Below, in pieces: positions 2,377 through 62,125 of a stretch of 64,000 nt of DNA (positions within the stretch are counted from its first letter, which is position 1; each line of letters begins with the position of its first letter). The translations under genes and the position numbers were made by a program. A model generated the notes under the pieces. It ran no database searches. It was given only the letters and a program-made list of their open reading frames with translations, and had not been told where the DNA came from. The stretch is from Acidobacteriota bacterium (GTDB lineage: Bacteria > Acidobacteriota > Vicinamibacteria > Vicinamibacterales > UBA2999), in assembly GCA_016184455.1 (NCBI GenBank), contig JACPCS010000107.1, positions 1 through 64,000 on the forward strand, written 5' to 3'.

Positions 2377-3594
2377 ATGCCGATCATGCTGCGCTTCCTG
2401 ACCGCCGGCGAATCCCACGGGCAAGCGCTCGTGGTCACCGTGGACGGGATGCCGGCGGGGCTCGAGCTCGACATCGACGCGCTCAACGAGCAGCTCCGGC
2501 GACGCCAGGGCGGCTACGGACGCGGCCGCCGGATGGCGATCGAAAGCGACCGTGCCGAAATCCTGGCCGGCGTCCGCCAGGGACGGACCACCGGCGCGCC
2601 CGTCGCGTTTCTCATCCGCAACCGTGACTGGGTGAACTGGCAGCAGACGATGTGCGTCGAGCGGGAGATGCCCGAGGGCGCGAGCGGTACCCGCCGCGCC
2701 GAGGTCACGCGGCCGCGGCCGGGCCATGCCGACCTTGCAGGCGCGATCAAGTACGGCCACGACGACATCCGCGACGTGCTCGAGCGTGCGAGCGCGCGCG
2801 AAACGGCCGCGCGCGTGGCGGCCGGCAGCCTCGCGCGGCAGCTGCTCGCACGGTTCGGCATCCGCATCGCCAGTCACGTCTCGATGATCGGCGACGTGGC
2901 GCTTCCCGATGGGCGCACCGTCTCGTTTGCGGAGGCCGCCGCCATTTCGGACGAGGCGCCGCTGCGCTGCGCGGACGCCGCAGTCCAGCAGCGAATGATG
3001 GCCGCCATCGACCGCGCACGCGATGCGGGCGATACGCTCGGCGGCGTCTTCGAGGTCATCGCGACCGGCGTCTCACCGGGGCTCGGGTCGTACGTCCAGT
3101 GGGATCGCAAGCTCGATGGGCGCCTCGGCCAGGCACTCATGTGCATCCACGCGATCAAGGCGGTCGGCATCGGCATCGGCCCGGAGGCCGCGCTCCGGCC
3201 CGGGTCGCGCGTGCACGACGAGATTCTGCCGCCCGCTGCCGACACGGGCCTGCCGGTGCGGCCGACCAACAATGCCGGCGGGCTGGAGGGCGGCGTCACC
3301 AACGGCGAAGACATCCGCGTGAGCGGCTTCATGAAGCCGATCTCCACGCTGATGAAGCCGCTCCGATCCGTCGACCTCGCCACGATGACGCCCCAGCCGG
3401 CCGCGATCGAGCGGAGCGACGTCTGCGCGGTGCCCGCCGCGGCCGTCGTCGGCGAGGCGATGGTGGCGTTCGTCCTCGCCGACGCGTTTCTCGAGAAGTT
3501 CGGCGGCGACTCGATCGGCGAGATCGAGCGGCACTACGCGTCGACCGCCGAGGAGGTGCGCCGGCGGTTTTCCAAGCGGGCTACGCCCGCATGA
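2377..3594 (+). CDS. aroC: Chorismate synthase
   Basis: Converts 5-enolpyruvylshikimate-3-phosphate to chorismate in a reduced-FMN-dependent reaction, the last step of the shikimate pathway. Family signatures are seen in order: GESHGQA near the N-terminus, [44 protein letters not shown], then [16 protein letters not shown] and the C-terminal [19 protein letters not shown]. About 405 residues, the usual long bacterial form. The start may be the ATG at 2377 (AAGGG 4 nt upstream) or the ATG at 2386 ([12 protein letters not shown]), the commoner N-terminus. First gene of a co-oriented housekeeping run; an array of heptamers separates it from def. Confidence 0.97.
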
Positions 3595-3598
3595 GCAG

Positions 3599-3656
3599 AC
3601 CTCAGGCCTCAGGCCTCTGGCCTCAGCCGGGCCCTGCGGCCTGGGGCCTGGGGCCT
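3599..3656. repeat. Heptamer array pair between aroC and def
   Basis: Left arm: CCTCAGG, CCTCAGG, CCTCTGG, CCTCAGC from 3600. Right arm: CCTGCGG, CCTGGGG, CCTGGGG to about 3654. Both have a 7-bp period, and the arms are largely complementary, so the spacer can fold back on itself. It fills nearly the whole 70-bp gap between the aroC stop and the def GTG. Confidence 0.75.
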
Positions 3657-3664
3657 TCACCATC

Positions 3665-7921: not shown

Positions 7922-7925
7922 AAAG

Positions 7926-8021
7926 CAGGCCCAAGGCCTCAGGCCCCAGGCCTCAGAAGGGCTCGAGCCGCCAGTCGACATCGTCCAGACTGAGGCCTGA
8001 GGCCCGGGACCTGAGGCCTGC
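7926..8021. repeat. Inverted pair of heptamer arrays between rpe and ybgC
   Basis: Left arm about 7926-7957: CAGGCCC, AAGGCCT, CAGGCCC, CAGGCCT. Right arm about 7991-8020: TGAGGCC, TGAGGCC, CGGGACC, TGAGGCC. Both have period 7 and the right arm is the reverse complement of the left, with about 30 nt between. The last GAGG (8013-8016) lies 6 nt before the GTG at 8023 and can serve as the Shine-Dalgarno of ybgC. Confidence 0.8.
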
Positions 8022-9341: not shown

Positions 9342-10174
9342 GCGTGCTTCGCAGTCAACTCCCACCCTCCAACACCCAACTCCCACATGAGAAGTGCTTG
9401 GGCGTTGGGTGTTGGGTGTTGGGACTTGTCTTTCTCGTCGCGCTCGCCGCATCCGGCTGCGGCGCCAGGCAGCAGGCGCCGCCGCCCGGCACCGCCCAAC
9501 CCGACAAGTTCCTGTTCGAGCGCGCCACGCAGGCGCTCAAGGAGCGCAGCTGGGTGAACGCGCGTACCTACTTCCAGCAGATCGTCGACGGGTACCCGCA
9601 GAGCCCGTTCCGGCCCGACGCCAAGCTCGGGATGGGCGACGCCTATCTCGGGGAAAACACGCCGGAGTCGCTCGTCTCGGCGCAGAACGAGTTCCGTGAG
9701 TTCCTGCAGTTCTACCCGACGAACCCGCGCGCCGACTACGCCCAGTACAAGATCGCGATGAGCCACTTCCAGCAGATGCGGGCGGCCGATCGCGATCAGA
9801 CCGAAACGCGGGCGGGGTTGAAGGAGTTCGAGGTCTTCTTCGACAAGTTCCCGAAAAGCCCGCTCATGCCCGAGGTCAAGGAGAAGTGGCGGATGGCGCG
9901 CGACCGCCTGAGCGAGCACTCCTACCGCGTCGGACTGCTCTACTACCGGCTGCGCTGGGATCCGGGTGCGATCAGCCGGTTTCAGGAAGTGCTGAAGGAA
10001 GACCCTGCCTACAGCGGCCGCGACGCCGTCTACTTCTATCTGGCGGAGTCGCTCGCCCGGTCCGATAAGAAAGCCGAGGCCATCCCGTACCTCGAACGGC
10101 TGCTCGCCGAGTTCGATCGCAGCGAGTACCTGGACGACGCCCGGGAACGGCTGCAAGAGCTGAAGAATCAGTAG
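9338..10174 (+). CDS. bamD: Outer-membrane assembly lipoprotein BamD-like (TPR)
   Basis: Predicted outer-membrane lipoprotein with TPR repeats, resembling BamD of the beta-barrel assembly machine. A lipobox ends at LAASGC and is followed by a low-complexity linker and tandem helical repeats (FERATQALKERSWVNARTYF, SPFRPDAKLGMGDAY and similar) with the Tyr-Pro turns of the family. About 278 residues. The ATG at 9338 overlaps the epimerase stop. The signal-peptide region is largely encoded by a heptamer array (9356-9425), so the true start could lie inside the array, e.g. a GTG shortly before LGLVFLVALAASGC. Confidence 0.8.
   Translation: MSVLRSQLPPSNTQLPHEKCLGVGCWVLGLVFLVALAASGCGARQQAPPPGTAQPDKFLFERATQALKERSWVNARTYFQQIVDGYPQSPFRPDAKLGMGDAYLGENTPESLVSAQNEFREFLQFYPTNPRADYAQYKIAMSHFQQMRAADRDQTETRAGLKEFEVFFDKFPKSPLMPEVKEKWRMARDRLSEHSYRVGLLYYRLRWDPGAISRFQEVLKEDPAYSGRDAVYFYLAESLARSDKKAEAIPYLERLLAEFDRSEYLDDARERLQELKNQ
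9356..9425. repeat. Inverted heptamer arrays inside the 5' end of bamD
   Basis: Left arm 9356-9383: CAACTCC, CACCCTC, CAACACC, CAACTCC. Right arm 9398-9425: TTGGGCG, TTGGGTG, TTGGGTG, TTGGGAC. The arms are mutually complementary with period 7 and a 14-nt loop. The region is translated in the assigned reading frame and contributes the GVGCWVLG part of the hydrophobic signal segment. Confidence 0.85.
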
Positions 10175-14122: not shown

Positions 14123-14197
14123 GCGGGAGTAGTTCAGCGGTAGAACGCGAGCTTCCCAAGCTCGATGTCGCGGGTTCGATCCCCGTCTCCCGCTCCA
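14123..14197 (+). tRNA. tRNA-Gly (anticodon CCC)
   Basis: Complete cloverleaf: acceptor GCGGGAG pairs with CTCCCGC, D-arm GTTC/GAAC, anticodon stem CGAGC/GCTCG around loop TTCCCAA (anticodon CCC, reads GGG), T-loop TTCGATC in a GCGGG/CCCGT stem, discriminator T and an encoded CCA. 75 nt. Confidence 0.97.
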
Positions 14198-14271
14198 AAT
14201 TCATCAACAACGCTGCGCCCACAATGCCTGCGCGCGTGACACGCGCACGGCGCGGTGCGTAGAGAGCATCC

Positions 14272-14460
14272 ACTGCGTCGGTGCGCCTGCAGCATCAGGC
14301 GCCGCAAGAGGGAACCCGGTTCGAATCCGGGACTGCCCCGCAGCGGTAATCGGGAACGACCGCGTCATCACGCACTGGCTCTCCGAGCCGGGAAGCGACG
14401 CCAGTAGGCCCGCGGCACACGTGCCGCTTGCCCGTAAGTCCGAAGACCTGCCGACGTGCA
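14272..14460 (+). promoter_or_regulatory. Cobalamin (AdoCbl) riboswitch
   Basis: Conserved B12-box-type elements appear in order: GGTGCGCCTG / CAGGCGCCGCAAG, GGGAACCCGGT, GAATCCGGGACTGCCCCGC and AGCGGTAA, then AGTCCGAAGACCTGCC near the 3' end. The closing helix is CGTCGG (14276-14281) with CCGACG (14451-14456). A further hairpin GAGGC/GCCTC at 14484-14505 could be the expression platform. It should repress the downstream CobS-fragment/cobC/cobU genes when adenosylcobalamin is abundant. Confidence 0.9.
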
Positions 14461-14561
14461 CATCAGGACCCGACCTCCGAGGGCGAGGCGTGGGGGCCAT
14501 GCCTCTCCTCGATTAACCGTCGGGCCATGCCTTGACGCCGCGAAGGGCGGCAGGAGGGGCC

Positions 14562-15957: not shown

Positions 15958-16666
15958 ACGACAACCCTGCCGATGCGGTCACGAGCGTGACCGGCACCGT
16001 CGAGACGCCTTCTTTGGTCCGCCCGCCCGCCTTGTGGAACCGCACGTCGAACGAGAACGCCAGGTGCTCGGTGTTGAACCACCGGGCGCCGCCGCCGATG
16101 TTGATCGTCTGGAGCGCCGCCGTTTCACGCGTGCGCGCCGGCGTGAGCGGCGCCGTGCTGCTGCTGCCGCTGGCAAACTCCGACGTCGACGTGTGCACCG
16201 TAATCTGCCCCACCCCCGCGCTGACGTAGCTCCAGCCGCGCGACGACCCGAAGTTGAAGGAGAGCTGCGGCGTGAACATCCGGACGCGCGTCTCCACTGA
16301 CGGCAGCGTCGGGCGCGGGGGCGGCGTGCTCCCGCTGCCGGAGGGAGACGGCGGCGCCGCCCCACCGCCGACGCGAATCAGGTTGACGCCCAGCCCAATC
16401 CGCGCGGGCCCGAGGTGAAAGACGTACACGTGGCCGCCGATGTCGAACCCGAGACTCGCGGTCGGAATCGGGGTCGCCGTCGGGGCAGGTGGGAAGAAGC
16501 TGGCGTCCTGCGGCAGCGAGCCGGTCGTGGCGCGGACGTCGATCGCGTACGGTCCGGGCGGACCTTCGGTCTGCTGGGCGACCGCGGCGCTCGGCAGAAG
16601 CGCCGCGACGACGAGCAGGGCCGACGCCCTCAGCCCCAAGCCCAAAGCCCGAAGCCTGAAGCCCAA
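15950..16666 (-). CDS. Predicted outer-membrane beta-barrel protein
   Basis: 238 residues: a signal peptide (LLVVAALLPSAAVA, cleavage before QQ), alternating short amphipathic strands rich in Gly/aromatic residues, a Pro/Ser-rich loop (near residues 105-120) and a C-terminus ending in Phe-Lys. This fits a small eight-stranded barrel or lipid-A-deacylase-like porin, but no family motif is recognised. The TTG at 16666 lies inside a heptamer array, so the first 10-14 residues are translated repeat and the genuine start is uncertain. Downstream of deoC by 3 nt. Confidence 0.65.
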   Translation of the reverse strand: MGFRLRALGLGLRASALLVVAALLPSAAVAQQTEGPPGPYAIDVRATTGSLPQDASFFPPAPTATPIPTASLGFDIGGHVYVFHLGPARIGLGVNLIRVGGGAAPPSPSGSGSTPPPRPTLPSVETRVRMFTPQLSFNFGSSRGWSYVSAGVGQITVHTSTSEFASGSSSTAPLTPARTRETAALQTINIGGGARWFNTEHLAFSFDVRFHKAGGRTKEGVSTVPVTLVTASAGLSFK

Positions 16667-16669
16667 CCC
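16632..16669. repeat. Heptamer array at the start of the OMP gene
   Basis: Five units in phase: AGCCCCA, AGCCCAA, AGCCCGA, AGCCTGA, AGCCCAA (the AGCC repeats start at 16632, 16639, 16646, 16653, 16660). On the minus strand they read as TTGGGCT-type heptamers and encode the proposed N-terminus of the OMP. The array abuts the deoC stop codon. Confidence 0.8.
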
Positions 16670-26424: not shown

Positions 26425-26453
26425 CTTGTATCACCCGCAGGCGCAGGCGTCAA
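26425..26453 (-). promoter_or_regulatory. Putative sigma-70 promoter of the 178-aa exported protein
   Basis: Minus strand TTGACG (26448-26453), exactly 17 nt, then TACAAG (26425-26430). The start of transcription would fall about 18 nt before the ATG at 26400. Confidence 0.5.
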
Positions 26454-26458
26454 TCAGC

Positions 26459-26534
26459 AGTAGGCGGTAGGCAGTAGGCAGAAAGGCATGCCGGTGCGTC
26501 GCACCGACCGCCGGTTGCCTACTGCCTACTATCC
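26459..26534. repeat. Inverted heptamer arrays enclosing a second hairpin
   Basis: Left arm 26459-26479: AGTAGGC, GGTAGGC, AGTAGGC. Right arm 26515-26528: TTGCCTA, CTGCCTA, then CTATCCG. Between them CGGTGC-GTC-GCACCG forms an independent perfect hairpin. The right arm contains the stop codon of the small membrane protein gene (TAG at 26529-26531 on the minus strand). Confidence 0.8.
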
Positions 26535-29601: not shown

Positions 29602-31608
29602 TCATCGGCCTGCGGAGAGGCGGGTCAGCCCGAGCTCACGGCTGCGCAGCGCCTTGAGCCGGTCGCGGATCGAGGCGGCCCGCTCGAAGTCGAGGTTCGC
29701 CGCCGCGGCCTTCATCTCCTTCTCGAGCCGTGCGATCTCGGCATCGAGCTCCGCCTGCGTGCGGAACGGCAGCCGCTCTTCCTCGACCTCGGGCGCGCTC
29801 ACGTAGTCGCGCTCGTAGACGCTCGACAGCACGTCGTCGATCTGGCGCACGACCGACTCCGGCGTGATGCCGTGCTCGGCGTTGTAGGCCGCCTGGAGCG
29901 CCCGCCGGCGCTCGGTCTCGGCAATCGCCGACTTCATCGAGGCGGTGATCGTGTCCGCGTACATGATCACGCGGCCGTTGATGTTGCGTGCGGCGCGGCC
30001 CGATGTCTGTATCAGCGACCCCGAGGAGCGCAGGAAGCCCTCCTTGTCGGCGTCGAGGATCGCGACCAGCGAGACCTCCGGCAGGTCGAGCCCCTCCCGG
30101 AGGAGGTTGATGCCCACGAGCACGTCGAAGGCGCCGCGGCGCAGATCGCGCAGGATGTCCACCCGCTCGAGTGTATCGATGTCCGAGTGCAGGTATCGCA
30201 CCCGCACGCCCAGCTCCTGGTAGTACGCCGTCAGGTCTTCCGCCATGCGTTTGGTGAGCGTCGTCACGAGCACGCGCTCGTGCGTGCCGACCCGATCCCG
30301 GATCTCGGTGAGCAGATCGTCCACCTGGCCCCGCACGGGACGCACCTCGATCGGCGGGTCCATCAGGCCCGTCGGCCGGATCACCTGCTCGACGACCACG
30401 CCGCCGGCCCTGGCCAGCTCGTACGGGCCCGGCGTCGCCGAGACGAAGACCACCTGCTTCACGCGCGCTTCCCACTCTTCGAAACTGAGGGGGCGATTGT
30501 CGAGCGCCGAAGGGAGACGGAAGCCGTAGGCCACGAGCACTTCCTTTCGCGAGCGATCGCCGTGGTACATGCCGCGAATCTGCGGCACGGTCTGATGGCT
30601 TTCGTCGACGACGACGAGCGCGTCGTCCGGGAGGTAGTCGAGCAAGGTCGGCGGCGGCTCGCCCGGCGCCCGTCCGGTCAGGTGCCGCGCGTAGTTCTCG
30701 ATGCCGTGACAGTAGCCGATCTCGCGAATCATCTCGAGATCGAACATCGTGCGCTGGTGCAGCCGCTGCGCTTCGAGCAGCTTGCCTTCGGACTCGAGCT
30801 GGCCTCGGTACCATTCCAGCTCCTGTTTGATCGCTTCGACCGCGCGCTTCGTGCGGTCGCGCGAGGTGACGAAGTGCGATTTCGGATAGACGGCGACCTT
30901 CTCGACGCGGCGGATGACCTTCCCCGTCAGCGGGTCGAACCATGCCAGCTCGTCGACCTCGTCGCCGAACAGCCCGATGCGCAGCGCGTGCTCCTCGTAC
31001 GACGGCACCACCTCGACGATGTCGCCGCGCACGCGGAAGGCGCCGCGGCCGAATTCGGCGTCGTTGCGCTCGTACTGGATCTCGACGAGCTTCCGCAGGA
31101 TCTGGTCGCGATCGATCCGCTGCCCGAGCTGCAGCGGCAGGAGCATCCCGTAGTACGCCTCCGGGGAGCCGAGGCCGTAGATGCACGAGACGCTCGCGAC
31201 GATGATGACGTCGCGCCGCTCGAAGAGCGACCGGGTGGCGGAGAGGCGCATGCGGTCGATCTCGTCGTTGATCGTCGCTTCCTTCTCGATGTACGAGTCG
31301 GTCGCGGGCACGTAGGCCTCGGGCTGGTAGTAGTCGTAGTAGCTGACGAAGTACTCGACGGCGTTCTCGGGGAAGAAGCGCTTGAACTCCTGATAGAGCT
31401 GCGCCGCCAGCGTCTTGTTGTGCGCCATCACCAGCGTCGGCCGGTTCACCGCGGCGACGACCTGCGCCATCGTGAACGTCTTGCCGGAGCCGGTGACGCC
31501 CAGCAGCACCTGGTGCGTGTCGCCGCGGTTCAGGCCCTCGACGAGCTCCGGGATGGCGTGAACCTGATCGCCACGGACTTCGAAGTCACTGACGAGGGCA
31601 AAATTCAT
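29602..31608 (-). CDS. uvrB: Excinuclease ABC subunit B
   Basis: Nucleotide excision repair helicase-like subunit, 668 residues. Walker [13 protein letters not shown], beta-hairpin region [32 protein letters not shown], helicase motifs VVDESHQ and QTSGRAARN, and the C-terminal UVR motif ([18 protein letters not shown]). Begins [10 protein letters not shown]. Its 5' leader consists entirely of an inverted heptamer array and has no Shine-Dalgarno. The first gene of an operon with the Mla transporter, an uncommon partnership. Confidence 0.97.
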
Positions 31609-31610
31609 TT

Positions 31611-31692
31611 ACGATTTGCGATTCGTGATTGGTGATTCGGGACAGATGGCCGGGCCCAAATCGCCAATCACAAATCACTAATCATAAATGAT
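31611..31692. repeat. Inverted heptamer arrays forming the uvrB leader
   Basis: Left arm 31611-31638: ACGATTT, GCGATTC, GTGATTG, GTGATTC. Right arm from 31658: AAATCGC, CAATCAC, AAATCAC, TAATCAT, AAATGAT (AATC at 31659, 31666, 31673, 31680; AATG at 31687). Perfect 7-bp phase in both arms, complementary to each other, AT-rich unlike the surroundings, exactly filling the gap between the VWA stop and the uvrB ATG. Confidence 0.9.
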
Positions 31693-32610
31693 TTATCGCC
31701 CTTCTTTATAGAGCGCGAAGTAGCCCTTGCGGGTGTGGACGCGGAGATCGCGCAGCCCGGGCCGCTTGACCCTGATCTCGACGCGGCGCCAGCTGCCGTC
31801 CTGGGCCGTGTTGGTGGAGACGTACCCGAGGGTGTACTGGTTGCGAATCTGGGCGACGATCTTTTCGTAGGCCGCCTCCACGTCCTTCATCGCCGTGGGG
31901 AAGAACGCCTGGCCGCCCGTCGCCTCCGCGATGTCCATGAGCCGCATGCGCTGGCCGATGCGGACGCTGCTCGGCTGGTTCTCGAGAAAGCCGACCGCAT
32001 GAATGGTGACGTCCGAGGCGCGGACGAGCGTCATCGCGTCGCTGAACGTGATCGTGCTGCGTGTGTCGCCGCCGTCGGTGTAGAGCACGAGGATCTTCCG
32101 GCCGTCAGCCTCGGCCGCGCCGTCGAGATACACGCCGAGCGCGTCGTACAGCGCCGTCCAGCCGTCCGGCTTCCGGTTGCGGATACGCTCGACCATGCGT
32201 GGAAAGTTGGCCTGGTCGTAGCGGGCCACCCTGACCTCGGTGTCGAAGTCGACGAGCGTCATGTCGACGGCGTCGCTGAGGGTGTTGAGGAACTTCACCG
32301 CCGCCGACCGGGCGAGCTTGATGTCCTCGCCCATGCTGCCGCTCGTGTCGAAGAGCAGCCCGAGATGGAGCGGCAGTTCCTCGGTCTCGCTGTCGCCGCG
32401 CGCAAACGAGGTGAGGGTCTGCGGCTTGCCGTCCTCGCGGATCTCGAAGTCGTCGCGTGTCAGATCACTGAGGAAATTCCCGCGCCGATCCGTGACCGTC
32501 ACGCCCATGGTCACGAGATCGATCCGCGATCGGAACTGCGCGTCGATGACGCTCGGGACGAGTCCGCCCAGCACTGCGGCCGTCATCAGGGCCCTGCGCA
32601 TCCGCATCAT
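31693..32610 (-). CDS. Acidobacterial-type VWFA-domain protein, exported
   Basis: 305 residues. A signal-like N-terminus is followed by the typical opening segment of the acidobacterial VWFA-related family (TMGVTVTDRRGNFLSDLTRDDFEI, near residues 34-60), then a von Willebrand A domain with MIDAS DTSGSMGED, the Thr/Asp positions DMTLVDFDTEV and LYTDGGDTRS. The C-terminus (IVAQIRNQYTLGYVS) is also family-typical. Role is not known; likely protein-protein interaction outside the cytosol. It is the strongest taxonomic clue in the window. Confidence 0.88.
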   Translation of the reverse strand: MMRMRRALMTAAVLGGLVPSVIDAQFRSRIDLVTMGVTVTDRRGNFLSDLTRDDFEIREDGKPQTLTSFARGDSETEELPLHLGLLFDTSGSMGEDIKLARSAAVKFLNTLSDAVDMTLVDFDTEVRVARYDQANFPRMVERIRNRKPDGWTALYDALGVYLDGAAEADGRKILVLYTDGGDTRSTITFSDAMTLVRASDVTIHAVGFLENQPSSVRIGQRMRLMDIAEATGGQAFFPTAMKDVEAAYEKIVAQIRNQYTLGYVSTNTAQDGSWRRVEIRVKRPGLRDLRVHTRKGYFALYKEGR

Positions 32611-37347: not shown

Positions 37348-37374
37348 CGGGCACCTCCCGGGGCCGATCATACT

Positions 37375-37409
37375 CCCGGGATTCGGGATCCGGGACCCGG
37401 GACCCGAGT
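37375..37409. repeat. Heptamer array between PLP enzyme and CBS gene
   Basis: Five in-phase units: CCCGGGA, TTCGGGA, TCCGGGA, CCCGGGA, CCCGAGT. No inverted partner arm. It touches the TGA of the PLP enzyme gene (minus strand, 37409-37411). Confidence 0.8.
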
Positions 37410-38512
37410 CAGCGGGTGCGATCGAGCGCCTGTTCCACGTCGGCAATAATGTCCTCGGCCGCCTCACAGCCGACGCTGAACCGGATGAAGCCGTCGCTGA
37501 TCGCGTCGCCGCCCCAGCGGGCCCGGCGCTCGGCCATCGAGAGGACGCCGCCAAAGCTCGTCGCTTCACGGACGAGCGAGAGTGCGCCGAGGAACGCCTC
37601 GGCGCGGGGCCGCGTGGCGAGATCGAAGCTGACGAGCGTCCCGAACGCCCGCATCTGGCGCCGCGCCGTGGCGTGCGCCGGGTGCGACGGCAGGCCGGGA
37701 TAGTGCACGCCTGCCACATCGGGTCGCGCGGCGAGAAATGCGGCGAGGCGCTCGGCCGAGGCGCACTGCCGGCTCAGCCGCAGCGGCAGCGTCGGGAGCG
37801 ACCGGTGTGCAAGCCACACTTCCATCGGGCCGGGGATCGCGCCGTGGTGGGTGCGCCACGTGCGCAGCGCCGCGATGAGCGCCTCGTCGCGCGTCGCGAC
37901 ATGTCCAAGCAGCAGATCGCTGTGCCCGGTCAGCGCCTTCGTGTCAGAGGCGACCACGAGCGCGGCGCCCAGTTCGAGCGGCTGCTGAAGGTAGGCTGTC
38001 GCGGTCGTATTGTCGACCGCGACGAGCGCGCCACGCGCCCTCGCGTGTTCCGCCAGCCCCTGAATGTCACACACGTCGAGGAGCGGATTCGACGGCGTCT
38101 CGAGCCAGAGGAGCCGCGCGCCCTCGAGAGCGGCGGCGTGATCGCCGTGCGTGGGCACCAGGCGCACCTCGACGCCGATCGGCTCGAGCCACGAGGCGGC
38201 CAGCCGGCGGATGGCGTAATAGCAGTCTGAGGGCAGCACCAGCACGTCGCCGCGCTTCAGCGTGACGCCGAAGGTCGCCGCCACGGCGGCCATGCCCGAC
38301 GCGAACGCGACCGCGTGACCGCCCTCGAGCGCCCCGAGTGCCGCCTCCCACGCGGTCCAGGTGGGATTGTGAAAGCGTCCGTACGTCAGCGCGTGCTCGG
38401 CGGGGTCGCCCGGCGTGGTGTAGGTGGACGAGAACTGCGGGCCGGCGAGAAACGGGCCCGGCTCGCCGCGCGGCCGGTACCCGGCGTGGACGATTAAGGT
38501 ATCGCGGTGCAT
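37409..38512 (-). CDS. Cys/Met-metabolism PLP-dependent enzyme (cystathionine gamma-synthase/lyase-like)
   Basis: 367 residues from the ATG at 38512. Fold-type I PLP enzyme: AFASGMAAV near the cofactor phosphate site, WLETPSNPLLDV, AVDNTTATAYLQ, the Schiff-base Lys in SDTKALTGHSD, and the C-terminal RFSVGCEAAEDI. It is a trans-sulfuration-family enzyme; gamma-synthase, lyase or methionine gamma-lyase activity cannot be resolved by eye. Divergent from the peroxidase fusion gene. Confidence 0.88.
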   Translation of the reverse strand: MHRDTLIVHAGYRPRGEPGPFLAGPQFSSTYTTPGDPAEHALTYGRFHNPTWTAWEAALGALEGGHAVAFASGMAAVAATFGVTLKRGDVLVLPSDCYYAIRRLAASWLEPIGVEVRLVPTHGDHAAALEGARLLWLETPSNPLLDVCDIQGLAEHARARGALVAVDNTTATAYLQQPLELGAALVVASDTKALTGHSDLLLGHVATRDEALIAALRTWRTHHGAIPGPMEVWLAHRSLPTLPLRLSRQCASAERLAAFLAARPDVAGVHYPGLPSHPAHATARRQMRAFGTLVSFDLATRPRAEAFLGALSLVREATSFGGVLSMAERRARWGGDAISDGFIRFSVGCEAAEDIIADVEQALDRTR

Positions 38513-41887: not shown

Positions 41888-41912
41888 CGAGACGTTGACT
41901 TTAACATAGCCG

Positions 41913-41954
41913 GTAGTTGGTGGTTGGTGGTTGGTGGTTGGTGGTTGGTGGTTC
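41913..41954. repeat. Six-unit heptamer array in the greA/methyltransferase divergent region
   Basis: GTAGTTG, four identical GTGGTTG units and GTGGTTC, ending immediately before the ATG at 41955. No inverted partner. GGTGG in the final units is the only Shine-Dalgarno-like sequence before the methyltransferase. Confidence 0.92.
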
Positions 41955-42752
41955 ATGAAGACGATCTCGAGTCGCCAGAATCCGATCGTCCAGCGGTTTC
42001 GCGCGCTCGCGCGTACGCCCGATCCGACGGGCGCGCGCCTGCTCCTCGACGGCGTGCACCTGGTGCAGGAGGCGCGCGCGGCGGGCGCCGAGATCGAGGT
42101 CGCGGCGATCGCCTCCCGCGCTCGGGCGTCGAGCGAGGAGGCGGAGGTGGCGCGCCGCCTCGAGGCGGAGGGCACGTCCGTGCTCAGCGCGCACGACCAG
42201 GCGTTTGCGGCGATGAGTCCCGTGCGGTCGCCGTCGGGGCTGGTGGCGATCGCACGCCGGGCGCCTGTCGAGGCTCGCGCGATCAGCGCGAGGCGCGACG
42301 CCTTCGTCATCGTCGTGGCCGACGTCCAGGACCCGGGCAATCTCGGATCGCTCCTGCGCGCCGCCGAAGCCGGTGGCGCCACGGGCGTGCTCGTCTGCGG
42401 TCGGTCGGCGAATCCGTTCTCGTGGAAGGCGGTGCGCGGGAGCATGGGAGCCGTCCTGCGGCTGCCGGTCGCCGCGGGGCTGGGCGTGGACGAGGCCGTC
42501 GCGGCCGTCCGGTCGCACGGCGGTCGCCTGGTCGCGGCCGCCCCGCGCGGCGGCCGTGCGCCCGACGCCGTCGACTGGCGCGGACGGCTCGGGCTGCTCC
42601 TCGGCGGCGAAGGACCGGGCCTGAGCGAGGCGGTACTCGCGGCGGCGGACGATCTGGTCACCATCCCGATGACCGCGCCCGTCGAATCACTGAACGTCGC
42701 CGTGGCGGCGGGGATTCTCGTGTACGCTGCCAGGCGGCAACGGCATGGGTGA
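41955..42752 (+). CDS. RNA 2'-O-ribose methyltransferase, TrmH/SpoU family
   Basis: 265 residues. An N-terminal L30e-like substrate domain ([17 protein letters not shown] ... [12 protein letters not shown]) and a SPOUT catalytic domain: [16 protein letters not shown] (motif 1), [11 protein letters not shown] (motif 2) and [16 protein letters not shown] (motif 3). Modifies 23S rRNA or tRNA; the target is not determinable here. It overlaps rarA by 8 nt. Confidence 0.92.
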
Positions 42753-47237: not shown

Positions 47238-47609
47238 CTACTCAATTCCGGTGTGTTTCTCGAGACCGGAGAGGCGCCGCTCATGGTCGTCGCCGATGCG
47301 GCGCACGAAATCACGGATGTCGCCGAGCGGCGCAAGCTCCTGCTTGATGTCGCGCAGGAGCCTGCCGTGCTCCTCGAGCTGACGGCCGTGATGCGCCTGC
47401 ACTTCCGCAATCATGCGAATCTGCGTGTCGTGCTGCTCGTAGAGCGCACGCAGCCGATGTACGTCGTCCTTCAGCACGCGCACATCGTCCTTCAGCACGC
47501 GCACATCGTCCTTCAGTACGCGCACATCGTCTTTCAGCACGCCCATGTCCGCGCCGAGCGCGTCGAGCCGCCCCTCGACCCTGGTCATCCGATCGTCGTT
47601 GTCAGTCAT
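47238..47609 (-). CDS. Coiled-coil protein with DDVRVLK repeats
   Basis: 123 residues from the ATG at 47609 (GGAGG upstream). Four to five consecutive copies of D-D-V-R-V-L-K form ideal coiled-coil heptads, followed by long amphipathic helices to the C-terminus. No catalytic motif. Its start overlaps the preceding gene by 8 nt. Function unknown; comparable to the coiled-coil/TM protein at 58950. Confidence 0.6.
   Translation of the reverse strand: MTDNDDRMTRVEGRLDALGADMGVLKDDVRVLKDDVRVLKDDVRVLKDDVHRLRALYEQHDTQIRMIAEVQAHHGRQLEEHGRLLRDIKQELAPLGDIRDFVRRIGDDHERRLSGLEKHTGIE
47465..47545 (-). repeat. 21-bp coding repeat
   Basis: Near-identical 21-nt units (core CGTCCTTCAGCACGCGCACAT on one strand split as 21-nt words) repeated about four times, encoding the DDVRVLK heptads. 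Almost no synonymous divergence, implying recent expansion. Confidence 0.8.
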
Positions 47610-48101: not shown

Positions 48102-49934
48102 CTAGATGCGCTGGAAGTTCTTCTCCACTTCCCGCCGCGTGAGGCGCAGCATGACGGGCCGTCCGTGAGGGCAGATCGTGGAATACGCGGTCGCGCGCAG
48201 CTCCTCCAGGATGTGCGCCATCTTCTCCGCCGTCAGCGGGTAGTTGGCCTTCACCGCGGCGTGGCAGGCCATCGTCGCGGCGATGCGCCGGAGCGCTTCC
48301 TCGACGCGCGCGCCGCGATCGAGCCCCTCGAGGTCTTCGGCCAGGGCGCGGATTGCCGCCTCGCAGTCCTCGCGGCGCAGCAGTGCCGGTACCGCCGCCA
48401 CGCGCACCGACGCTCCGCCGAACTCCTCCAGCTCGAATCCGAGCCGCTCGAGCTGGGCGGTGTGGGCCGCCAGACCCTGGCGGGCGGCCGGCGGCAGCTC
48501 GACCAGCATCGGCTCGAGCAGCCGCTGGCTTTCGAGCCGCCCGGCCGTCAGCCGCTCCATGATCCGCTCGAAGAGCACGCGCTCGTGCGCGACGTGCTGA
48601 TCGATGATCGCAATCCCCTCCTCGTCGACGGCGATGATGAACGTGTCGCGGAACTGGCCGAGCGCGATCATCGGGCGGATCGTCGGTGCGATCCCCCTGT
48701 CGCTGGTCGGTGCGAACTGGGCTTCGCTCGTCGGTGCGATCGCGCTGCCGGTTGTCGGTGCGAACCCGCTGTCGCCCGTCGGTGCCACCCCACCTGCCCA
48801 TCTACTAGGGAACGTCGGCGCGTACCCAGCCGGCAGCGGCAGCGTCGACGGGAGCGGATCGGCGGGCCGCGGCGCCTGCAGCTGCAGCTCCGGCGCCGGA
48901 CCGCGCCCGAGCGCGTCGCCGAGCGTCCGCCGGATCACCTCGTGCACGTACGACTGATCCCGGAATCGGACTTCCGCTTTCGTCGGGTGCACGTTCACGT
49001 CGACGGCCGTGTACGGCATCGTGATGAACAGGTGCACTTCCGGGCTGCGCTCCTTGATCGACGCCACGCTGTACGCGTCGATGATCGCGTGCGCGATCGT
49101 ACGGTCGCGCACGATCCGGCGATTGACGAACAGGTGCTGCGGGCCGCGCGTCGGCCCGCCCTGAGCCCGGTCGAAGGGCCCGCCCAGACCGCCGCCGGCG
49201 GCACCGGGCTCCGCCAGCGCTGCGATGTAGCCGACGATCTGCACGTCGCCGGTCTCGCGGCGCACCTCGATCAGGTCGGCACGCTCGCCGTAGAGCTGGT
49301 AGAGCCGGTCGCGCAGGCTGCCGACCGGCGGACACTGCAGCACCGTCCGCCCGCCGCTCGTCAGCGTGAACCCGATCTCCGGGTAGCACAGGGCCATCTG
49401 CGTGACGACGCGCGAGACTTGCGCAGCCTCGGCGCTGTCGGACTTGAGGAACTTGCGGCGAGCCGGCAGGTTGTAGAAGAGGTCGGCGACCCCGACGGAG
49501 GTCCCCTCGGGCATGCCGACCTCCGTCACGGCGGAGACAGTGCCGCCGTTCACACGGATCTCGCTGCCCGAGGCGGCGCCGCGCGCGCGGCTGCGCAAGG
49601 TACAGTGCGACACCGACGCGATGGCCGGCAGCGCTTCGCCGCGAAACCCGAGCGTCGCGATGCCGTCGAGGTCGTCGGCGTGCCGAATCTTGCTCGTCGC
49701 GTGCCGCTCCACGGCCAGCCGCACGTCCTCCGCCGCCATTCCTTCCCCGTCGTCGTCCACGCGGATCCGCTTTTTGCCGCCGAGCTCCACCGCGATGGCG
49801 ATGCGGTGCGCGTCCGCGTCGATCGCGTTCTCGACGAGCTCCTTGACGACCGACGCGGGACGCTCGACGACTTCCCCCGCGGCAATCTGATTGGCAAGGT
49901 CCGGCGGCAGGACGCGGATGCGGCCTCCGCTCAC
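48102..49934 (-). CDS. mutL: DNA mismatch repair protein MutL
   Basis: 610 residues from the GTG at 49934. GHKL ATPase: VIRVLPPD-type start, AAGEVVERPASVVKELVENA, DDGEGM, TLGFRGEALPAIASVS, LFYNLPARRKFLK. The C-terminal dimerisation domain has DQHVAHERVLFE and CPHGRP. Two oddities: an inserted GGPFDRAQGG-type loop just before the conserved PTRGPQHLFVNRR, and a linker containing five APT units spaced 8 residues. Overlaps corA's stop by 2-3 nt. Confidence 0.95.
   Translation of the reverse strand: MSGGRIRVLPPDLANQIAAGEVVERPASVVKELVENAIDADAHRIAIAVELGGKKRIRVDDDGEGMAAEDVRLAVERHATSKIRHADDLDGIATLGFRGEALPAIASVSHCTLRSRARGAASGSEIRVNGGTVSAVTEVGMPEGTSVGVADLFYNLPARRKFLKSDSAEAAQVSRVVTQMALCYPEIGFTLTSGGRTVLQCPPVGSLRDRLYQLYGERADLIEVRRETGDVQIVGYIAALAEPGAAGGGLGGPFDRAQGGPTRGPQHLFVNRRIVRDRTIAHAIIDAYSVASIKERSPEVHLFITMPYTAVDVNVHPTKAEVRFRDQSYVHEVIRRTLGDALGRGPAPELQLQAPRPADPLPSTLPLPAGYAPTFPSRWAGGVAPTGDSGFAPTTGSAIAPTSEAQFAPTSDRGIAPTIRPMIALGQFRDTFIIAVDEEGIAIIDQHVAHERVLFERIMERLTAGRLESQRLLEPMLVELPPAARQGLAAHTAQLERLGFELEEFGGASVRVAAVPALLRREDCEAAIRALAEDLEGLDRGARVEEALRRIAATMACHAAVKANYPLTAEKMAHILEELRATAYSTICPHGRPVMLRLTRREVEKNFQRI
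49158..49179. repeat. Palindromic element inserted in mutL
   Basis: GCCCTGAGC, CCGG, TCGAAGGGC: interrupted inverted repeat, matching a dispersed palindrome type (CCCTGAGC..GTCGAAGGG) seen in diverse bacterial genomes. Translated as PFDRAQGG in a loop of the N-terminal domain. Confidence 0.6.
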
Positions 49935-61643: not shown

Positions 61644-62125
61644 CGGTGCCTCTCGATCAGGCCTGCACGCAGGCCGCCGCGGGCTCGCAGCCTGGCCTCG
61701 AGCCGGGCCATCTGCCCCGCGTCGCGCTCGTGATCATAGCCAAGAAGGTGCAGCAGGCCGTGGAGCGCCAGCACGCGCAGTTCCGCCTGGAGCGAGTGCC
61801 CCGCCTCGCGCGCCTGCCGGCGCGCCACGCCGGCGGCGACGACGATGTCGCCCAGATTGTCGGGCTCTTCGGCGGGGAACGACAGCACGTCGGTGGGCCG
61901 GTCGATCCGGCGGTAGCGCCGGTTGAGCCGGCGGACGTCGCCGTCCGAGACGATAGCGACCGTCACCACGCCACGCGCGCGCGCGGGCGCCACCGAACCG
62001 AGCCAGCGCGCGAGCCCCGGCGCGCGGACGCCGAGGGGCGCCACGACCTCGACGTGCAGTCGGGCCCGCCGGGATCGCGACCCGGATCCCGGCTCCCGGC
62101 TCCCGGCTCCCGGCTGATCAGTCAT
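61640..62125 (-). CDS. ybeY: Endoribonuclease YbeY
   Basis: 161 residues. Zinc motif H-x3-H-x5-H in [15 protein letters not shown] and family stretch [18 protein letters not shown]. 16S rRNA maturation. The N-terminus ([20 protein letters not shown]) is translated heptamer array, so the conserved protein starts near LHVEVV; the actual start may be downstream. Overlaps phoH by 8 nt; phoH-ybeY-corC-era is a classic order. Confidence 0.92.
62078..62116. repeat. Heptamer array at the phoH/ybeY junction
   Basis: CGACCCG, GATCCCG, then three identical GCTCCCG units and GCTGATC; the phase starts possibly at GGGATCG (62071). On the coding strand it encodes a Gly/Ser/Arg-rich start for ybeY. Confidence 0.85.

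Follow-up and report, generated by a model that had tools for sequence, protein, structure and literature searches.

The hairpin-forming sequence between uvrB and its upstream neighbor is best explained, with a probability of roughly 0.7, as a local copy of a lineage-specific class of inverted heptamer arrays that occurs genome-wide, would be formed by slippage and would be tolerated between genes. The initial annotation had described this structure and suggested that it might control the DNA-repair gene; the structure is present, but a role in the control of uvrB finds little support. Throughout, the window denotes the whole stretch of 64,000 nucleotides that was analyzed.

The uvrB gene (29602-31608, minus strand) encodes 668 aa with Pfam matches to UvrB, UvrB_inter, UVR and Helicase_C and lies downstream of a gene with a Pfam VWA domain (31693-32610), also on the minus strand. 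The gap between the two genes measures exactly 84 nt (31609-31692). As the initial annotation had seen, it holds two inverted AT-rich period-7 arrays (31606-31642 and 31655-31693), which form an inverted repeat with 40-nt arms, 83% complementarity and a 13-nt loop. On the minus strand, the upstream arm (31655-31694) consists of GTGATTT-type heptamers and enters the VWA stop codon (31693-31695), and the downstream arm (31602-31641) consists of AATCACC-type heptamers and covers the uvrB ATG (31606-31608); the dyad hence spans from the uvrB start region (31602) past the ATG into the VWA stop codon (31694). On the coding strand, the gap reads ATCATTTATGATTAGTGATTTGTGATTGGCGATTTGGGC..., then ...CCCGAATCACCAATCACGAATCGCAAATCGTAA ahead of the ATG, and the array unit is GTGATT(T/G/C/A), without GGG. 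The description of the leader as wholly an inverted array holds for most of its length but not for the G+C-rich stretch around the loop (31642-31654), which is not heptameric; its CGGCC/CTGTCC may correspond to the short uvrB leader of relatives, the match being weak and short. The inverted-repeat score of the gap is 22.5, compared with a maximum of 11.0 in 1000 composition-matched 101-mers, and ranks 10th among 558 intergenic regions. Folding of the corresponding RNA confirmed that a long hairpin can form by the ATG (-43.2 kcal/mol versus -18.2 ± 3.1 for shuffled sequences; z = -8.1).

A structured 5′ leader of this kind might control uvrB itself, either as an RNA switch or by occluding the start, and both the very stable fold and the coverage of the AUG by the dyad in read-through RNA speak for this. 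We nevertheless consider such control quite improbable, in part on the following grounds. A search of the window against Rfam gave no match at the uvrB leader, only a cobalamin riboswitch and two tRNAs. Moreover, the AUG would lie mostly outside the main stem if transcription started at the candidate -10 box of uvrB, TATGAT (31681-31686, minus strand), which is located shortly past the VWA stop codon, inside the array at its upstream end. From this box, the RNA is predicted to start near 31674 and to form a hairpin of 53 nt, beyond which the AUG lies in a weakly structured stretch; a start here would leave a shortened leader hairpin with the ATG largely outside. TATGAT is also found near the VWA stop codon in the sister species (G001, locus L009) and in G013 (L013), and it is commoner upstream of genes in this genome than in coding sequence (0.16 versus 0.01 per kb). 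It is accompanied by no good -35 element; because a consensus scan upstream of uvrB finds no full sigma-70 site, its role as the uvrB promoter is one that we infer. The riboswitch (RF00174, 102 bits) lies at 14262-14469, near a tRNA-Gly gene (14123-14197).

No Shine-Dalgarno sequence precedes the uvrB ATG, which agrees with the initial annotation, and an in-frame TAA immediately 5′ of the ATG means that the reading frame cannot start earlier. Since a Shine-Dalgarno match of even four nucleotides was found at only 30% of predicted genes, compared with 12% in a control window, the lack of this motif at uvrB is ordinary: starts without it are usual in this genome, uvrB included.

About eight more period-7 arrays of other heptamers, which the initial annotation had missed, are present in the window. 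Inverted GGCCTCA/GGGGCCT arrays (3593-3661) stand before a peptide deformylase gene and inverted CAACTCC/TTGGGTG arrays (9356-9431) before a YfiO-like gene; further inverted arrays are made of AGGCCTC (7925-8020) and of GGCAGTA/TACTGCC (26451-26530). An AGCCCAA array (16616-16667) has a single arm, a CCGGGAT-type period-7 array (37369-37416) overlaps the end of a called gene and so may or may not count as intergenic, (GGTGGTT)n (41905-41960) lies between greA-like and SpoU-like genes, and (GGCTCCC)n (62069-62120) precedes a YbeY-like gene. The genes beside these arrays (deformylase, YfiO-like lipoprotein, SpoU methylase, GreA-like factor, YbeY) are unrelated, and this occurrence of the same kind of element at unrelated genes argues against a control dedicated to DNA repair. 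Tandem repeats of 21 nt (3.8 copies, 94%) and of 24/48 nt also occur within predicted ORFs, at 47464-47542 and 48680-48798, respectively.

Across 1.09 Mb of the genome, period-7 arrays were found in 75 intergenic regions. This census was taken in pieces, and because the presence of similar arrays partly guided the choice of contigs for the first 429 kb, the number of array-bearing gaps extrapolated to the whole genome is a range, from 185 (unbiased contigs) to 325 (all pieces). Counted strictly inside gaps, the 75 arrays of period 7 compare with 0.15 expected under a first-order Markov model, and with 3, 0, 8 and 10 arrays of periods 5, 6, 8 and 9. At a threshold of 17, 70 arrays were located in gaps and 14 in coding sequence. 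The sequence of the unit varies widely: 92 arrays represent 36 distinct consensus units, such as GATTTGT, GGCAGTA, GGTAGCC, GGGCTTT and GGGAGTT. A BLAST search of the same genome with the uvrB array returned twenty matches, with itself and matches on both strands counted. We rejected an assembly artefact as unlikely, since arrays recur across many contigs and across independent assemblies, and likewise quadruplexes as the basis of the class: four G-tracts were not found, the uvrB unit has no GGG, and GGG is present in the units of only 24 of the 92 arrays.

The arrangement of the arrays is strongly ordered. Where neighboring arrays in one gap share 6-mers, they are inverted in 26 cases and direct in one (p about 4e-7). 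Between genes on the same strand, the arms start at a median of 1 nt past the stop codon and finish at a median distance of 8 nt from the start codon, the distances to starts being approximate as genes were called with a simple codon-score script; the hairpin thus typically occupies the whole gap between stop and start. Array-bearing gaps make up 7 of 135 between divergent genes, 50 of 339 between tandem genes and 17 of 84 between convergent genes, a depletion in divergent gaps (7/135 versus 67/423 for all others; Fisher p = 0.001). The G-rich arm precedes its partner in 25 of 36 hairpins.

The order of units matched between arms in none of 28 cases at p ≤ 0.05, and unit-by-unit copying of one arm from the other is therefore not supported. 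Mismatches between arms, read on the transcribed strand, comprised 27 G.U and 21 A.C pairs (p = 0.47, from 48 positions only). On this count there is no excess of G.U over A.C, the strand bias that a structured leader or any selection for pairing at the RNA level would be expected to leave, and we discarded such selection as a cause. Pairing therefore follows from the presence of two oppositely oriented arrays of the same unit, and nothing suggests that RNA pairing between the arms has been fine-tuned.

The position bias raises the possibility that the inverted arrays serve the gene upstream, here the VWA gene, as 3′-end elements that end transcription without a U-tract or protect the 3′ end of the mRNA, and thereby insulate uvrB. 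We regard this as a tentative alternative, possible yet clearly short of likely. The higher frequency of arrays in convergent and tandem than in divergent gaps agrees with it, as do the arms that adjoin the stop codon and the report that most repeats of this kind in X. axonopodis pv. citri are transcribed (Rehm et al. 2015, PMC4692102). However, avoidance of promoters would yield the same position bias, and most gaps carry no array. In addition, the 12 nt that follow the hairpins show no enrichment of T (56 of 252) and no terminator-like site was found at uvrB; on these two results, an intrinsic terminator with a U-tract was rejected.

Comparison with relatives showed that the arrays turn over rapidly, while the VWA–uvrB gene order is kept in most of them. 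In the sister species, which belongs to the same genus, the uvrB gap measures 41 bp and has no array. At other orthologous gaps, this species keeps a short left part at 26.4 kb with the loop and the right arm missing, carries (GGTAGCC)n in place of the (GGTGGTT)n of the window at 41.9 kb, and has no array at 62.1 kb. Among 49 uvrB upstream regions, the hairpin is absent from most, and the structure is not conserved at orthologous leaders. Together with the genome-wide occurrence of the class, this lack of conservation led us to reject riboregulation specific to uvrB. Across the order the distribution is patchy, with many arrays in some genomes and none in 40-80 kb of others.

In four relatives (L014, L029, L032 and L033), arrays of other heptamers lie between the VWA stop codon and a conserved -10-like box, i.e. 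upstream of the presumed uvrB promoter; the arrays of L029, L032 and L033 were flagged by an automated scan, while that of L014 was recognized by eye only. This position argues against a dedicated control of uvrB and is in agreement with 3′-end elements of the VWA gene, although in the window the array encloses the candidate -10 box instead of preceding it. The conserved box, GTGGTACGAT (up to 2 mismatches), is found upstream of uvrB in 29 of the 49 regions, compared with 1.4 expected (L014, L016, L020-L027, L029-L034, L037, L059, L061-L064, L066, L069, L071-L073, L075 and L076). Throughout the order, it probably serves the uvrB promoter as an extended -10 element. It was not found at uvrB in the window or in the sister species, both of the window's genus.

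Five more distant relatives (L011, L016, L017, L018 and L019) have a small GGCCGY..RCGGCC hairpin with some compensatory changes in the uvrB leader, between a TAAGAT/TAAAAT/TAGAAT-like box overlapping the VWA stop codon (TACGAT in L016) and the uvrB start. This would fit a structured leader at uvrB, but the covariation term is not favorable and the hairpin is only suggestive. The inverted GTGATT pattern itself occurs in only two of the 149 genomes that were sampled within the phylum, namely in this genome and a distant one, and not in the sister species. In the distant genome (G186), the inverted arrays at C312:145-202, C351:7036-7093 and C362:4759-4813 have loops that are alike, and they perhaps represent a different, palindromic element.

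Many dispersed intergenic copies that are able to fold, together with two Y1_Tnp matches in the genome, could point to a mobile palindromic element of the REP/REPIN type that was moved by a RAYT/Y1 transposase and landed before uvrB. Of the explanations considered, we find this the hardest to credit: the 36 different units share no conserved core of 20-40 nt, and the local sequence of orthologous gaps has grown stepwise and changed its unit, unlike a clean insertion. Y1 counts do not obviously track the arrays either, as 5 matches occur in one genome (G002) whose 20-kb sample contains no array. Since neither the array units nor the orthologous sites fit, a mobile palindrome was rejected. We also set aside, as not decisive, the idea that the arrays result from losing the hairpin nuclease SbcD. 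In nearly the whole order, including G000 and most of 38 relatives, no match to SbcD (TIGR00619) exceeded the cut-off, and the protein is present in two genomes of one genus (G037 and G049). It was undetected also where the sampled stretches have no arrays, and G049 has both SbcD and arrays.

We therefore return to local slippage and passive tolerance as the favored explanation. Tandem slippage by 7 nt at a time would let arrays grow, shrink and swap their unit in place; next to the first array, a second one of the same unit in inverted orientation would arise or be retained, and the pair could then fold in DNA or RNA. Such arrays would persist where harm is small, in short stop-to-start gaps, and rarely between divergent genes, the site of promoters. 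Between the VWA stop codon and the uvrB start, a short leader probably came first, and the array grew around it. If TATGAT is the promoter, the uvrB mRNA would have a leader of roughly 65 nt, of which the 5′ part forms a hairpin and the end before the AUG is weakly structured; weak structure at this point would permit a start without a Shine-Dalgarno sequence, as at most genes here. If uvrB is instead read through from the VWA gene, the whole hairpin would lie between the two reading frames. One point against passive slippage is that the 26:1 inversion and the precise filling from stop to start are more orderly than plain slippage predicts. This order could reflect selection for the hairpin. 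The almost constant inversion of the second array goes beyond slippage alone; selection for a hairpin at gene ends or hairpin-templated synthesis could account for it. A bolder proposal, to which we give little credence, is that an activity of this lineage counts seven nucleotides, is largely blind to sequence, and makes and keeps inverted heptamer hairpins as gene-boundary elements that separate consecutive genes.

None of the papers searched described such arrays for Acidobacteriota. Among known systems, the closest are the heptameric G-rich repeats GGGAATC / GGGGA(C/T)T of Xanthomonas and Nostoc (Rehm et al. 2015, PMC4692102). These, too, consist of a tandem 7-nt unit in at least two copies with an intergenic bias, lie between aligned genes near stop and start codons and more rarely between divergent genes, include many inverted pairs (about 70 per Xanthomonas genome), have unrelated neighboring genes, and vary in length and sequence between relatives. 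The arrays described here differ in that they have dozens of units, most of which lack GGG, with a unit at uvrB other than GGGNATC / GGGGAYT, and in that inverted pairing is nearly the rule. Because most units here are without GGG, quadruplex formation cannot be the common feature of the class. Furthermore, most arrays are lost or changed in those orthologous gaps of the sister species that were compared, whereas two Xanthomonas genomes keep 83% of theirs (PMC4692102). The TAACTGA repeats of Beggiatoaceae and cyanobacteria (MacGregor 2015, PMC4679880) are likewise heptamers in gaps, often ending beside a start codon without a ribosome-binding site, but they have a single fixed unit and are almost exclusively direct repeats, not hairpins. 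As cited in PMC4692102, Calothrix (cyanobacterial) heptanucleotides resemble the arrays in being tandem 7-nt units, and a Helicobacter pylori heptamer, GTGATTA, comes close to the uvrB unit. With REP/REPIN elements the arrays share dispersed intergenic hairpins at high copy number; those elements have a conserved sequence and a linked transposase, whereas the arrays share only the period of 7 nt. In our best reading, the arrays are a lineage-specific variant of the Xanthomonas/Nostoc intergenic heptamer repeats, and the uvrB case is ordinary within it. The supposed uvrB regulator thereby becomes a clear natural test of what makes heptamers the dominant intergenic repeats of some bacteria. A few hundred arrays in one genome have only period seven and inverted order in common, and the corresponding sites of the sister species are empty or carry another unit. 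This contrast separates the sequence, which is free, from the period and the arrangement, which are kept, and speaks against quadruplexes as the reason why the class as a whole exists.
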